Shown here piece after piece: positions 1 through 5,326 of a DNA stretch of 5,751 nucleotides. Every line of letters starts with the position of its first letter. Position 1 is the stretch's first letter. The notes beneath the pieces are model-generated. The model had not been told where the DNA came from. It ran no database searches and saw only the letters and a program-made list of their open reading frames with translations. A program made the translations under genes and the position numbers. This stretch comes from Candidatus Desantisiibacteriota bacterium (GTDB lineage: Bacteria; JACRDZ01), in the NCBI GenBank assembly GCA_016209155.1, contig JACQWU010000130.1, positions 1 through 5,751 on the forward strand. The letters run 5' to 3'.

Positions 1-41
1 AACATTATCAAAGAACGGGATAGGTTTTCAAATCCACCGCT

Positions 42-63
42 GAGACGCAAGGCATTGCGTCTC
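42..63. repeat. GAGACGC palindromic element, copy 1
   Basis: Arms GAGACGCAA and TTGCGTCTC form a perfect 9-bp stem around the centre GGCA. It lies at the right end of the first 66-bp core. Such short palindromes behave like REP or MITE-type dispersed repeats. It has no T-run, so it is not a classic terminator. Confidence 0.85.
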
Positions 64-71
64 TACAAACA

Positions 72-92
72 TGTTAATAATTGTTGCATCAT
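72..92 (-). pseudogene. Degenerate second copy of the hsdS-tail relic
   Basis: This is the counterpart, in the first repeat unit, of the HsdS tail at 327-359. On the minus strand it reads MMQQLLT and then diverges. It meets a stop supplied by the GAGACGC palindrome. It is recognisable only by comparison with the other unit. Confidence 0.4.
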
Positions 93-297
93 GCCCTACC
101 TCTGAAATATATTTAATATACAACATTTATTTTAAAATCGATTTATTCATCACAACCATATTTTCCCCGCATTGGCTTACCGTGTATCCGTTTTTTTACC
201 CCACATTTGCACAAAATAATTCATTTCACATCATCTGTTACACCGTCTTTTCCCTGAACATTATCAAAGAACGGGATAGGTTTTCATATCTACCGCT

Positions 298-319
298 GAG
301 ACGCAAGGCATTGCGTCTC
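298..319. repeat. GAGACGC palindromic element, copy 2
   Basis: Identical to copy 1, with the same 9-bp arms and GGCA centre. It sits at the end of the second 66-bp core and directly abuts the hsdS-tail relic. Confidence 0.85.
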
Positions 320-326
320 TACCCAT

Positions 327-359
327 CAACCTGATTCTCCCTGTTAATAATTGTTGCAT
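327..359 (-). pseudogene. hsdS: Relic of the HsdS C-terminal tail
   Basis: The minus strand reads MQQLLTGRIRL. Type I restriction specificity subunits very often end in a stretch of the form KKGLMQQLLTGKIRL, so eleven residues match a family hallmark. The frame upstream does not look like HsdS and soon hits a stop. Downstream it runs into the GAGACGC palindrome. Only a scrap is left, with no target recognition domains. Its position fits: after hsdM and dinD on the same strand is where hsdS would be expected. A chance match is possible because the segment is short. Confidence 0.5.
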
Positions 360-457
360 CTTGCCCTGCCCCTGAAATATATTTAATATACAACATTTAT
401 TTTAAAATCGATTGGTTCATCCAAACCATATTTTTTCAGCATTGGTTTCCCGTGTAT

Positions 458-544
458 CCGTTTTTTTCTGTAGAGACGCAATGCCTAGCGTCTCCCGCGG
501 TAACAACAATATCCGCGTTATATCTAAATTTTACCCGTTTTTTT
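458..544. mobile_element. 77-bp MITE-like insertion with 10-bp flanking direct repeats
   Basis: The sequence CCGTTTTTTT occurs at 458-467 and again at 535-544. The first repeat unit has it once (188-197) and then continues directly into ACCCCACATTTGC, which in this unit resumes at 545. The unit therefore carries 77 extra bases. These include a GAGACGC palindrome (473-494) and a second small hairpin (CGCGG at 496-500 pairing with CCGCG at 513-517). The arrangement looks like an insertion with target duplication. Loss from the first unit by recombination between the 10-bp repeats would look the same. It encodes no transposase. Confidence 0.65.
473..494. repeat. GAGACGC palindromic element, copy 3 (inverted)
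   Basis: Arms GAGACGCAA and TAGCGTCTC with centre TGCC. It is in the opposite orientation to the other four copies and has one mismatch in the stem. It lies inside the 77-bp insertion. Confidence 0.8.
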
Positions 545-639
545 ACCCCACATTTGCACAAAATAATTCATTTTACACCGTCTATTACACCATCCATGAA
601 CATTATCAAAGAACGGGATAGGTTTTCATATCCACCGCT

Positions 640-661
640 GAGACGCAAGGCATTGCGTCTC
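640..661. repeat. GAGACGC palindromic element, copy 4, at the dinD stop
   Basis: Same sequence as copies 1 and 2, at the end of the third core. Read on the minus strand the element begins GTAGAGACGC, and its TAG is the stop codon of dinD (661-663). It could fold in the mRNA just after the gene, but it is not followed by a U-run. Confidence 0.85.
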
Positions 662-1473
662 TACTGTGGTCGTTCCGTCAACAATTTCTTCACAGAGCTT
701 TTCAATCGTTTTTTGGATTCTTTGATATTATCAGGTGTTGGTAGATTCTCCGGCATAGTACCGCCTAATTCTTTAATTGTCTGACGGACTTTTTTGCCAA
801 CATCATGATGTGCCTGGTTGGCTTTTGGCTGTCCTGATATATTTTCTCTTTTTAGTTTTGCTTCAGCTTGTGTAGCGCGAAATAAATTAGCTGCAAGCTC
901 TTCACTGTTCATATGATCAAGAATAGTTTCCTTTTTTTGTAGTTTCTTTTTAGCGTGAATATCTTTTTGTCTCATGCCGCCATACAAGCCCATATACCCG
1001 TAGTCCTGAAAATTTGCATAATTAATTACGCCTGCTTCTTTGGCTGCTTGAGCTAACTGTTTATTATGCGTTTTCATCTCATCGCGCAGATATAATCGCT
1101 TATTATCTTCAATTAATTGTTCATGCATTTCCTGTTTTCTGGTTTGAATTGCAAAATAGGTTTGAGCCATGGCAATTTTTTCTTTTCTGGGATCACCATT
1201 TTGAGCTATAAGGTAACAGGCGTAGCGGGAAAGATTGTAATCGTCAATGGAACGTTCAGTTCCTGAACCAATTTTGACCATTTTCGTGGCGCCAGCGAAA
1301 TGGTCATCCACCTTCTGACTACTGTTTTTACAAGATTCTTTCGCTCGTGTAACGGCTACTTCAAAATTTTCCCATCTCACATATCCCAGAGGTGTCATCA
1401 AATCGCGCGCACACCAATATTCTTTGCCATACTCATTATTTTTTTTGATCTGTTCAAAAATATTATTGGACAT
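661..1473 (-). CDS. dinD: DNA damage-inducible protein D (DinD), intact
   Basis: 270 residues, close to the E. coli DinD length. It is recognised by the BRO-N-like N-terminal region (about 12-115) with LSRYACYLIAQNGDP (81-95) and AQTYFAIQTRKQE (103-115). The DinD-specific C-terminal half has GLYGG (162-166), LAANLFRATQ (193-202) and VGKKVRQTIKELGGTMP (225-241). In E. coli DinD is an SOS-regulon protein reported to inhibit RecA strand exchange. I see no LexA-type operator here. The ATG at 1473 follows AAGGAG by 5 nt, and that site overlaps the stop of an hsdM tail relic, so dinD was translationally coupled to hsdM. From memory, DinD-like genes often sit inside type I restriction operons, which fits this context. 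The stop codon lies in a palindromic repeat. The identification is firm. Whether it acts with the methylase is inference. Confidence 0.93.
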   Translation of the reverse strand: MSNNIFEQIKKNNEYGKEYWCARDLMTPLGYVRWENFEVAVTRAKESCKNSSQKVDDHFAGATKMVKIGSGTERSIDDYNLSRYACYLIAQNGDPRKEKIAMAQTYFAIQTRKQEMHEQLIEDNKRLYLRDEMKTHNKQLAQAAKEAGVINYANFQDYGYMGLYGGMRQKDIHAKKKLQKKETILDHMNSEELAANLFRATQAEAKLKRENISGQPKANQAHHDVGKKVRQTIKELGGTMPENLPTPDNIKESKKRLKSSVKKLLTERPQ

Positions 1474-1527
1474 AGCGTCTCCTTATATTTTGTATTCCAT
1501 TTTTAATAAATGATTATTAACTTTTTT
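1429..1527. repeat. Duplicated hsdM-tail/dinD-start junction, downstream copy
   Basis: These 99 bp match 1704-1802 without gaps at an offset of 275, with 12 mismatches by my count. The copy covers the first 15 codons of the intact dinD, its ribosome site and the last 14 codons of an hsdM reading frame. Similarity stops sharply on both sides. Confidence 0.9.
1483..1527 (-). pseudogene. hsdM: Relic of the hsdM 3' end in front of dinD
   Basis: Reads KKVNNHLLKMEYKI and stop, against KKVDAHLLKMGYKI and stop at the true end of hsdM. It has no start and no upstream coding sequence. Before it the DNA turns into AT-rich filler and a CACAGAG repeat. The stop TAA overlaps the AAGGAG site of dinD. Confidence 0.85.
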
Positions 1528-1550
1528 ATCGAAATATAAATTAATTTATT

Positions 1551-1614
1551 TAACCACAGAGTAAAACATATTTAAATTTTTTTATTTCTCTGTGGCTCTG
1601 TGCCTCTGTGGTTA
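1551..1614. repeat. CACAGAG-type inverted repeat
   Basis: TAACCACAGAG (1551-1561) is a perfect 11-bp inverted repeat of CTCTGTGGTTA (1604-1614). Between them CTCTGTG recurs at 1588, 1596 and 1604, spaced 8 bp apart. Interspersed repeats built of CACAGAG blocks are common in many environmental bacterial genomes. Its function is unknown. It lies between the two copies of the duplicated junction. Confidence 0.75.
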
Positions 1615-1658
1615 GACATCTTTTTTAATTACGACTGCTAACTGTTAATTAAGCGTTT

Positions 1659-1748
1659 TCATCGCGTCCTGCGTTGAGACGCAAGGCATTGCGTCTCTAC
1701 AATATATTCATTAATTTTTTTGATTTGTTCAAAAATGTTATTGGACAT
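1659..1748 (-). pseudogene. dinD: Truncated dinD relic interrupted by a palindrome
   Basis: A start matching dinD for 15 codons: MSNNIFEQIKKINEY, against MSNNIFEQIKKNNEY in the intact gene. One codon later the reading frame enters the GTAGAGACGC palindrome and stops after 29 codons in total. The ribosome site is AAGGCG rather than AAGGAG. It follows the real end of hsdM directly, so this was the dinD originally coupled to this hsdM. Confidence 0.85.
1676..1697. repeat. GAGACGC palindromic element, copy 5
   Basis: Identical 22-bp palindrome to copies 1, 2 and 4, here outside the tandem array. With the adjoining TAC it abuts the dinD relic. The relic's match to the intact gene ends at 1704, four bases from the element. 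Confidence 0.85.
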
Positions 1749-1802
1749 AGGGTCGCCTTATATTTTGTATCCCATTTTTAATAAATGTGCATCTACTTTT
1801 TT
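1704..1802. repeat. Duplicated hsdM-tail/dinD-start junction, upstream copy
   Basis: Partner of 1429-1527. It contains the genuine last codons and stop of hsdM, a one-base-weakened ribosome site and the 15-codon dinD relic. Confidence 0.9.
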
Positions 1803-2821: not shown

Positions 2822-4099
2822 CTATATAGCAATCTCTACCACACTTACCATACGGGAATATTTTGGGATTTCTATTTGTTTATTGAATACATCAACAATC
2901 TTGTGAATGTCCTGAGCGCGCAGACGGTTTTTATTGCCATCTTTTACAAAGCCTTTGCCTGCGTCAATCATAAAAATACCTTTGCGGTTTTCAGCGTTTT
3001 CCTTGTCGAGCACAATGATACATGCCGGAATACCCGTGCCATAAAAAAGGTTTGCCGGCAGTCCGATAATGCCTTTGATATATCCGCGGCGAATAATGCT
3101 GGTACGGATTACTGCCTCGGCATTTCCGCGGAATAATACGCCATGAGGAAGAATACACGCGCCTTTTCCGGTGGTTTTCATTGAGCGGATAATATGAAGA
3201 AGAAAAGCATAATCGCCATTTTTAGCAGGCGGTGTGCCAAAACCTTCAAACCTGCCAAATTCATCAGGGTTTTTTACTGCATTGCTCCATGATTTAAATG
3301 AAAACGGAGGATTAGCTACGACAAAATCAAAAGTCTTGAGTTGATTACCGTCTTTGAAAAGCGGGGTTGAAAGAGTATTTTCGCGCATTATCACCGCTGT
3401 TGCGTTATCATGCAAAATCATATTCATACGAGCCGAAGCGGCAGTGGCATTATCCATTTCCTGACCGTAGAGTTTTATGTTTTTATCTGTCTCATCGGCC
3501 ACTTTCAAAAGTAAAGAACCGGAACCGCATGTTGGATCATAACCGGTTGGAGTTTTAATTGTTGTATTTGCAATACCAATAACTTTGGCAATAATCCGGC
3601 TCACCTCTGAAGGAGTGTAAAATTGTCCTTTGCTCTTACCGCTTTCAGAAGCAAAGTTTCGCATTAAATATTCATAGGCATCACCAAGAATATCATCACC
3701 TTCAGCGCGGTTTTTACTGAAATCAAGAGCAGGATTTTCAAAAATAGCGATTAAATTAGTGAGTTTCTTTACCATATCAGCGCCGCTTCCAAGCTTTTCC
3801 GCGTTATTAAAGTCCGGCATCTCCGAAAGTTTGTTTGCTTCGGCAATGGGAGCAATTATTTTTTTGTTGATATCGTCGCCTATAGTCGCTTTGCCCTTAA
3901 GTGCTGCCATATCCTTAAAACTTGAACCTACAGGAACAGTAATCGGAGCATACGGTACACCGGCATATTTGTCAGAGATGTATTTAATAAACAACAAAAC
4001 CAGAACATAGTCTTTATACTGAGATGCGTCCATCCCGCCTCGAAGTTCATCACAGCTTTTCCAAATTGAGCTATAGAGTTGCGATTTTTTGATTGCCAT
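2822..4099 (-). CDS. hsdM: HsdM N-terminal and catalytic part (type I N6-adenine methyltransferase)
   Basis: 425 residues covering the HsdM N-terminal helical domain (about 6-130) and the S-adenosylmethionine-dependent methylase core. Motifs visible are GQFYTP (158-163), the cofactor loop DPTCGSGSLLLK (188-199) and the catalytic NPPF (263-266) for adenine N6 methylation. The conserved run GYIKGIIGLPANLFYGTGIP spans 339-358. All catalytic motifs are intact. The ATG at 4099 follows AAAAGGA within a normal distance. The reading frame ends early at VVEIAI because of the deletion described for the whole gene, so the C-terminal half that docks HsdS is lost. A truncated protein might still bind cofactor but is unlikely to methylate specific sites without HsdS. 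Confidence 0.93.
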   Translation of the reverse strand: MAIKKSQLYSSIWKSCDELRGGMDASQYKDYVLVLLFIKYISDKYAGVPYAPITVPVGSSFKDMAALKGKATIGDDINKKIIAPIAEANKLSEMPDFNNAEKLGSGADMVKKLTNLIAIFENPALDFSKNRAEGDDILGDAYEYLMRNFASESGKSKGQFYTPSEVSRIIAKVIGIANTTIKTPTGYDPTCGSGSLLLKVADETDKNIKLYGQEMDNATAASARMNMILHDNATAVIMRENTLSTPLFKDGNQLKTFDFVVANPPFSFKSWSNAVKNPDEFGRFEGFGTPPAKNGDYAFLLHIIRSMKTTGKGACILPHGVLFRGNAEAVIRTSIIRRGYIKGIIGLPANLFYGTGIPACIIVLDKENAENRKGIFMIDAGKGFVKDGNKNRLRAQDIHKIVDVFNKQIEIPKYSRMVSVVEIAI

Positions 4100-4292
4100 A
4101 GTTTCCTTTTGTTTAATGAATAAAAAATCAATAATTTTTCAATATATTTTTTGGATTATTTTACTCCTTTTTCTTGTAGGATTCCATTCAATTTTAAATT
4201 ACATAAATTACGAATAAAAAGGGCAGGCACGGGGATCTGCCCCTACAATACAAAATAATAATTAATCAATTCTTTATGAAATTAAGACACAG
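4100..4292. other. Intergenic region upstream of hsdM
   Basis: Very AT-rich sequence holding the hsdM ribosome site (about 4104-4110) and the palindrome at 4221-4246. The hsdM promoter should be here, but no -35/-10 pair stands out from the A/T background. Confidence 0.5.
4221..4246. repeat. GC-rich palindromic dispersed repeat
   Basis: GGGCAG (4221-4226) pairs with CTGCCC (4237-4242) around a 10-nt loop and is followed by CTAC. It is a GC island in very AT-rich DNA. On the minus strand it reads GTAGGGGCAGATCCCCG, the form of a dispersed element seen in many bacterial genomes. It could weakly stop transcription from the genes to its right, but it has no T-run. Confidence 0.7.
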
Positions 4293-4405: not shown

Positions 4406-5326
4406 TTACATTTCGATTCTCTCTTTTATTTTTTCTACATAATAAGTTATCCATGCGGAAGGTTCTTTTTTCTCTGAAAAGTCCCATCCTTTCCAGCTCA
4501 TATAAATTGACTCTGCTTTATATTTTCCATCAGGATATGATTTACTATATATTTCATTCAGCATAGAAATAAATCTTTTATCTTTACATGTTTTTTTATT
4601 TCCGGATAGGATATAAACTACATTAAGAATATCATACCAAAATAGCGGAGCTTTTAATTTTCTAAAATCAGTTCCCATATAAAACATGTATGGATGTTCT
4701 TCCCTGCTCATAACCCATAGTCTTAATAAACACTCCGAGCATATTTCTATTTCCTTTTTAAACTCGTCTCCATATAAGTTTAATAATCTCAACATAATTA
4801 ATGTTGCATATGGGCATGGATCATCTTTTCTTCCTGGACCTCTAAAAGGATTTAACTCTTTGGATACTTTACAGCGGTAACCATTATTATCTATAAGAGC
4901 TGCTAAATATCTCAGGGACTTTATAACAGCATTATCATTTTTTAATCCCATTATTGCCATTGAATAAGTGATACTCGGGGCATCACAAATAGCCCATGCA
5001 AGTGTATCTGTCCCGGTTCCACCGTAATTTTCTGAGATATTCATTGGTAAAACAAATGGACCTTCTTCTGAAACATTACCCTTAATTTTTGAAATAATTT
5101 CAGGAATATCTTTATAGGTGAGACCAATATCTGCCAGAAATTCAAGTTTATGGAATGACTGTTTTGCGCTTTTATGGCTGTTTAAAACAGTCCCGGGCCA
5201 ATTCATTAATTCATTTATTATAGATTTAATTCTTTCGTCTCGAATTATTTTTTTCTTGTCTTTATCGAGTATTGCATTCAGTAAAGAATCTTTAGAAATG
5301 ATCCATTGATGAATAGTCTTGTTCAT
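4406..5326 (-). CDS. Uncharacterised protein, possible alpha/alpha-toroid fold
   Basis: 306 residues with no signal peptide or membrane segment visible. I do not recognise a named family with certainty. Several helix-rich blocks are spaced like repeats of a prenyltransferase/squalene-cyclase type toroid: SLRYLAALIDNNGYRCK (137-153), DDPCPYATLIMLRLLNLY (168-185) and FWYDILNVVYILSG (229-242). A further block has DGKYKAESIYMSWKGWDF (266-283) followed by EKKEPSAWITYYV (285-297). A DxD-type catalytic motif typical of cyclases is not evident, so an enzymatic role is not claimed. The ATG at 5326 is preceded by AGAGGTG, which overlaps the end of the aminotransferase. Only three bases separate that stop from this start, so the two genes are surely co-transcribed. 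It looks more AT-rich than hsdM. Confidence 0.85.
   Translation of the reverse strand: MNKTIHQWIISKDSLLNAILDKDKKKIIRDERIKSIINELMNWPGTVLNSHKSAKQSFHKLEFLADIGLTYKDIPEIISKIKGNVSEEGPFVLPMNISENYGGTGTDTLAWAICDAPSITYSMAIMGLKNDNAVIKSLRYLAALIDNNGYRCKVSKELNPFRGPGRKDDPCPYATLIMLRLLNLYGDEFKKEIEICSECLLRLWVMSREEHPYMFYMGTDFRKLKAPLFWYDILNVVYILSGNKKTCKDKRFISMLNEIYSKSYPDGKYKAESIYMSWKGWDFSEKKEPSAWITYYVEKIKERIEM

Follow-up and report, generated by a model that had tools for sequence, protein, structure and literature searches.

A repeated hsdM-end/dinD-start junction in an eroding type I restriction-modification operon

Type I restriction-modification (R-M) operons with dinD between hsdM and hsdS occur in a Pacebacteria MAG (L031) and in Legionella drozanskii (L035). 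In both, hsdM, dinD and hsdS follow in a row, and hsdM runs straight into dinD through a single junction. A GTAG class of REP has been described, and REP hairpins have been discussed as sources of instability (PMC3733652). REPs within genes or at gene ends are also documented (PMC3733652, PMC2817692), and REPs of the GTAG type are known together with RAYT (REP-associated tyrosine transposase). Partial tandem duplication of a gene with a pseudogenised copy is a further known arrangement.

In this study, we analysed a window of 5,751 nt, which is the whole stretch of DNA considered here (Table 1). The source genome is a fragmented MAG of 352 contigs that is 79% complete. As in the Pacebacteria and Legionella operons, hsdM and dinD lie on the same strand and the start of dinD is close to the stop of hsdM. 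However, the hsdM here is a broken gene of a long type (~800 aa), dinD has a relic duplicate, hsdR is frameshifted, and of hsdS, the next gene in those relatives, only C-terminal scraps survive. As in known GTAG REP/RAYT systems, GTAG stands beside a short palindrome that is dispersed in the genome; a candidate Y1-transposase-like gene on contig C257 is flanked by these repeats. Unlike in those systems, the copies are few (33 strand matches at <=2 mismatches at some 20 sites, against 0 in the control) and coincide with breaks in one decaying operon. As in partial tandem duplication, a start-proximal relic and an intact copy stand in direct tandem, on the same strand and head-to-tail, and the tail of the upstream neighbour is repeated. 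The locus does not differ in kind from an ordinary case, but it is unusually legible, with the hsdM tail retained. These results show that the repeated junction exists and tells more than was first reported. They indicate that an eroding R-M operon here probably underwent a partial tandem duplication of an ordinary kind, with pseudogenisation.

Table 1. Features of the window and their coordinates.
Feature	Position	Strand	Details
Tandem array of REP-bearing units	1-664	.	between dinD and contig end; families D1, D3, D6, D7
Second HsdS tail relic	72-95	minus	MMQQLLT; repeat D3
Second RAYT 5' leader + first codons relic	117-212	minus	alignment to C257:121-218
HsdS C-terminus relic	324-368	minus	QGKMQQLLTGRIRLM; repeated in part at 72-95
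RAYT 5' leader + first codons, relic	387-467	minus	alignment to C257:139-218 (RAYT start at 177)
Intact dinD	661-1473	minus	270 aa, BRO-N domain (Bro-N match)
Downstream 99-nt copy	1429-1527	minus	orphan hsdM tail (14 codons + stop 1483-1485), dinD ribosome site, start of intact dinD (1471-1473)
CCACAGAG...CTCTGTGG repeat element	1553-1612	.	between dinD relic and orphan hsdM tail; inverted repeat I11
Second dinD relic piece	1625-1668	minus	~codons 131-150; H136L, K138stop, G148V, 18-nt deletion; repeats D10, D17
GTAG-type REP palindrome	1673-1701	minus	exactly at break of dinD relic after codon 15
Upstream 99-nt copy	1704-1802	minus	end of resident hsdM (stop 1758-1760) + first 15 codons of dead dinD (start 1746-1748)
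hsdM C-terminal part, shifted frame	1758-2837	minus	PADLOC MTase_I profile PDLC03027 positions 515-809; stop 1758-1760
hsdM N-terminal part, type I DNA methyltransferase	2822-4099	minus	425 aa; N6_Mtase 2.6e-92, HsdM_N, TIGR00497; early end at net 31-nt deletion

The preliminary description had reported that the hsdM-end/dinD-start junction occurs twice, 275 bp apart, and this was borne out. A repeat search (family D4) returned two gap-free copies of 99 nt at a spacing of 275, identical at 87/99 positions (88%) with 12 mismatches. Their local alignment scored 138, whereas 1000 dinucleotide shuffles gave 43 at most. On the minus strand, both copies open with 14 hsdM codons and TAA; the dinD ribosome site follows within a spacer of 9 nt, and 15 codons of dinD complete the copy. 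The upstream copy, from 1802 to 1704, reads KKVDAHLLKMGYKI-stop, GGCGACCCT, MSNNIFEQIKKINEY; the downstream copy, from 1527 to 1429, reads KKVNNHLLKMEYKI-stop, GGAGACGCT, MSNNIFEQIKKNNEY. Of the mismatches, six are in the tail of hsdM, two are spacer positions and four are in dinD, three of the last being synonymous. The spacer is AAGGCGAC in the upstream copy and AAGGAGAC in the downstream copy, and the ribosome site is AAGGCG and AAGGAG, respectively. In the orphan hsdM tail the conserved MG has become ME, the G being kept in 39/46 relatives. Read along the minus strand, this gives hsdM, a dead dinD, an orphan tail of hsdM and the intact dinD. The downstream copy carries the start of the intact dinD, as first described. 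The upstream copy does belong to the hsdM present here, but this resident gene is itself broken.

The 176-nt gap separating the copies contains a dinD fragment, a GTAG-type REP palindrome and the CCACAGAG repeat. The fragment, which had been missed in the first reading, is identical at 25/27 nt to codons 132-141 and continues with GCAG-CGTAATTA beyond the 18-nt deletion. Its alignment score was reached by 0/1000 shuffles, and its order and orientation are collinear with dinD. A part of the remainder of the duplicated unit is therefore found between the copies, and the rest is deleted. The REP hairpin GTAGAGACGCAATGCCTTGCGTCTC (DNA hairpin z -4.9) lies between the first 15 codons and this second piece. 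Elsewhere in the genome, the CCACAGAG repeat recurs as three partial copies (84-94%). Candidate dinD scraps on either side of it, at 1528-1552 and 1613-1627, were not convincing (p 0.043 and 0.26, respectively). The region had no Rfam match to an RNA element.

The intact dinD is a full-length match to DinD NF008573 over residues 3-266 (1.2e-113; 379 bits against a curated cut-off of 242), and its last codons and stop extend into a REP. It is the only R-M gene at the locus that reads through intact, and it may still be expressed. Its nearest relatives are in a WOR-1 MAG (L029, 78%) and in a genome of the same phylum (L030, 75-76%). Neither has an hsdM tail upstream of dinD, and hsdM was undetected in the fetched flanks; the upstream hsdM tail is therefore not a normal dinD leader. 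Viral contigs scanned with the single dinD protein gave no match, and an alignment query gave only more distant dinD. Relatives of the long hsdM type, in genomes and viral contigs, were searched for an adjoining dinD and had none. An unrearranged version of the locus with the long hsdM type was present in no relative compared.

The locus does not hold the intact hsdM, hsdS and hsdR of a functional type I R-M system. The distance from the match of residue 423 in the first part of hsdM to that of residue 4 in the second is 33-36 nt in relatives and 2 nt in the window. This net loss of 31 nt, relative to the commonest spacing in relatives, shifts the frame, and the deletion (2822-2837) removes a stretch that links the methylase domain to the C-terminal part. 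The C-terminal frame is open to 2837, with its first in-frame ATG at 2594. hsdS is absent from the locus save for two C-terminal scraps with the MQQLLTG motif, each of which adjoins a REP and a relic of the RAYT start. The longer scrap is identical at up to 13/15 residues to the tails of HsdS encoded beside related hsdM genes (score 66; shuffles reached 38 at most).

Window positions 1-84 overlap the end of contig C257 at 83/84, and C257 is therefore very probably the next contig. It encodes a RAYT-like gene, hsdR and a truncated YgjP. The RAYT-like gene (C257:177-716) matched NF047646 at 9.3e-13, with 48 bits against a curated cut-off of 80, and Y1_Tnp at 0.0046. Array units with REPs and relics of the RAYT start occupy window positions 1-664 and positions 1-220 of C257 (L214), and the RAYT start with the hsdS tail is likewise repeated, with decayed copies beside an intact one. 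hsdR is recognisable (TIGR00348, 1.2e-157), but its native start is lost: at L214:900-1110, its first recognisable codons, which are in another frame from the rest, continue in frame from half of a REP, and a frameshift follows. Thus, a REP marks the point where the dead dinD breaks off, the 3' end of its intact counterpart, the 5' end of hsdR and the flank of each hsdS scrap. These positions suggest that REPs may have caused the breaks. The whole type I R-M cluster is decaying, and its R-M part is very probably dead. Other hsdM/hsdS-like genes of the same genome (L216, contig C217 2301-3526; L217, contig C205) carry stop codons, and several R-M loci in the genome seem to be decaying. Upstream of hsdM, a partly palindromic stretch, GGGCAGGCACGGGGATCTGCCCCTAC (4220-4247), resembles another dispersed repeat family. 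A 306-aa protein is encoded at 4406-5326 on the minus strand, between an aminotransferase fragment and hsdM, and had no Pfam match (E up to 1).

We consider it probable that a segment at the hsdM end and dinD was partially duplicated in tandem inside the type I R-M operon and then eroded. The ancestral order was probably hsdM-dinD-hsdS-hsdR. A segment from just before the hsdM stop through dinD would have been copied in tandem, giving hsdM-dinD-(hsdM tail)-dinD. A REP would then have inserted into the upstream dinD, with codons 16 to ~130 lost beside it, and this relic would later have gained its stop codon and small deletions. The CCACAGAG repeat may have inserted further downstream of the relic. 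The downstream dinD would have stayed intact with its own ribosome site, attached to a now non-coding 54-nt hsdM tail. A single event in place, preceding the REP insertion, is our reading of this order. The preliminary description had suggested tandem duplication of the operon followed by deletion. The duplication is strengthened by the dinD fragment in the gap, but the scale of a whole operon is more than is needed. The repetition of the RAYT start with the hsdS tail and the intact gene order of L031 and L035 also speak for it. We favour a smaller duplicated unit, dinD with no fewer than the 54 nt that precede its start, which suffices; a whole second hsdM could have been lost, but this need not be assumed. 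Counting against duplication, the breakpoint is covered by the CCACAGAG element and cannot be read, the relatives compared lack an unrearranged version with the long hsdM type, and the MAG is fragmented and 79% complete.

Recombination with a related hsdM-dinD locus of another strain or species, which would have put a foreign hsdM tail and dinD behind a decayed resident dinD, is possible but doubtful. The 12% divergence between the copies and the non-family residue E after M in the orphan hsdM tail would agree with it. The divergence had been taken as a pointer to old age or two sources, but by itself it does not indicate the latter. The neighbouring non-coding tandem duplications (72-197/342-467 and 185-247/532-594) are also ~10% diverged, and no second source is therefore needed. 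For a second related hsdM-dinD locus, as earlier proposed, the genome gave no support: in the assembly, which is 79% complete, dinD and the C-terminal hsdM half have one match each. A foreign or strain donor is less likely for this reason. The copies are also closer to each other than to any fetched relative compared, the relic and the intact dinD being identical at 41/45 nt and either one at 33-38/45 to L029, L030 and L031. We also polarised the dinD substitutions with L029-L031 as outgroups, site by site, as the relic stretches (45 and ~43 nt) are too short for a tree. All four differences in the first 45 nt were derived on the intact copy and none on the relic. In these small numbers, this is the reverse of what is expected of a pseudogene; it speaks for recombination and counts against duplication. 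However, the internal relic piece has three relic-side changes, which makes the overall balance even. Such near-equal numbers of substitutions (4 and 3) fit one duplication in the present lineage.

Partial tandem duplication would also be compatible with selection for the arrangement, in which dinD was given its own promoter and ribosome site and was uncoupled from a dying hsdM. The AAGGAG site at the intact dinD, compared with AAGGCG upstream, and the survival of dinD as the sole intact-reading R-M gene here are consistent with this. However, a promoter scan near the intact dinD gave 2 promoter-like matches against 2.1 expected, which is the level of chance, and dinD may simply be not yet decayed. 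We regard selection of the layout as rather improbable.

Misassembly is unlikely. The fragmentation of the MAG, together with the presence of both repeat types of the gap elsewhere in the genome, could suggest that two strain haplotypes or two loci were joined through repeats into one contig. Against this, the longest exact run common to the copies is 16 nt. The gap matches the other genome loci tested exactly over at most 30 nt (REP), and over <=16 nt in the case of the two CCACAGAG copies that were compared. Joining at random would not bring dinD codons 131-150 directly behind codons 1-15 in the same orientation, and we give a misassembly a low probability.

At this locus, dinD and RAYT itself share a tandem gene-start pattern. 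It is conceivable, but highly unlikely, that REP/RAYT activity generates such copies over and over, each a gene start together with the tail of its neighbour, so that the upstream ones die and the last stays intact, and that the small cargo gene dinD would thereby outlive the R-M operon with its own ribosome site. An ordinary intergenic region, with similarity due to a shared ribosome site or to a leader conserved in relatives, can be practically dismissed: the copies do include the dinD ribosome site, but both also hold 14 codons of hsdM and 15 of dinD. Upstream of the closest stand-alone dinD genes (L029, L030) there is no such tail, and L031 and L035 show one junction only.

Taken as a partial tandem duplication with REPs at several breaks, the locus is a readable fossil of the erosion of a defence operon. 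The specificity gene has been lost, hsdM and hsdR carry frameshifts, and the accessory dinD still reads through. An annotator relying on the sequence alone would report a functional hsdM-dinD system, although its R-M part is very probably dead.
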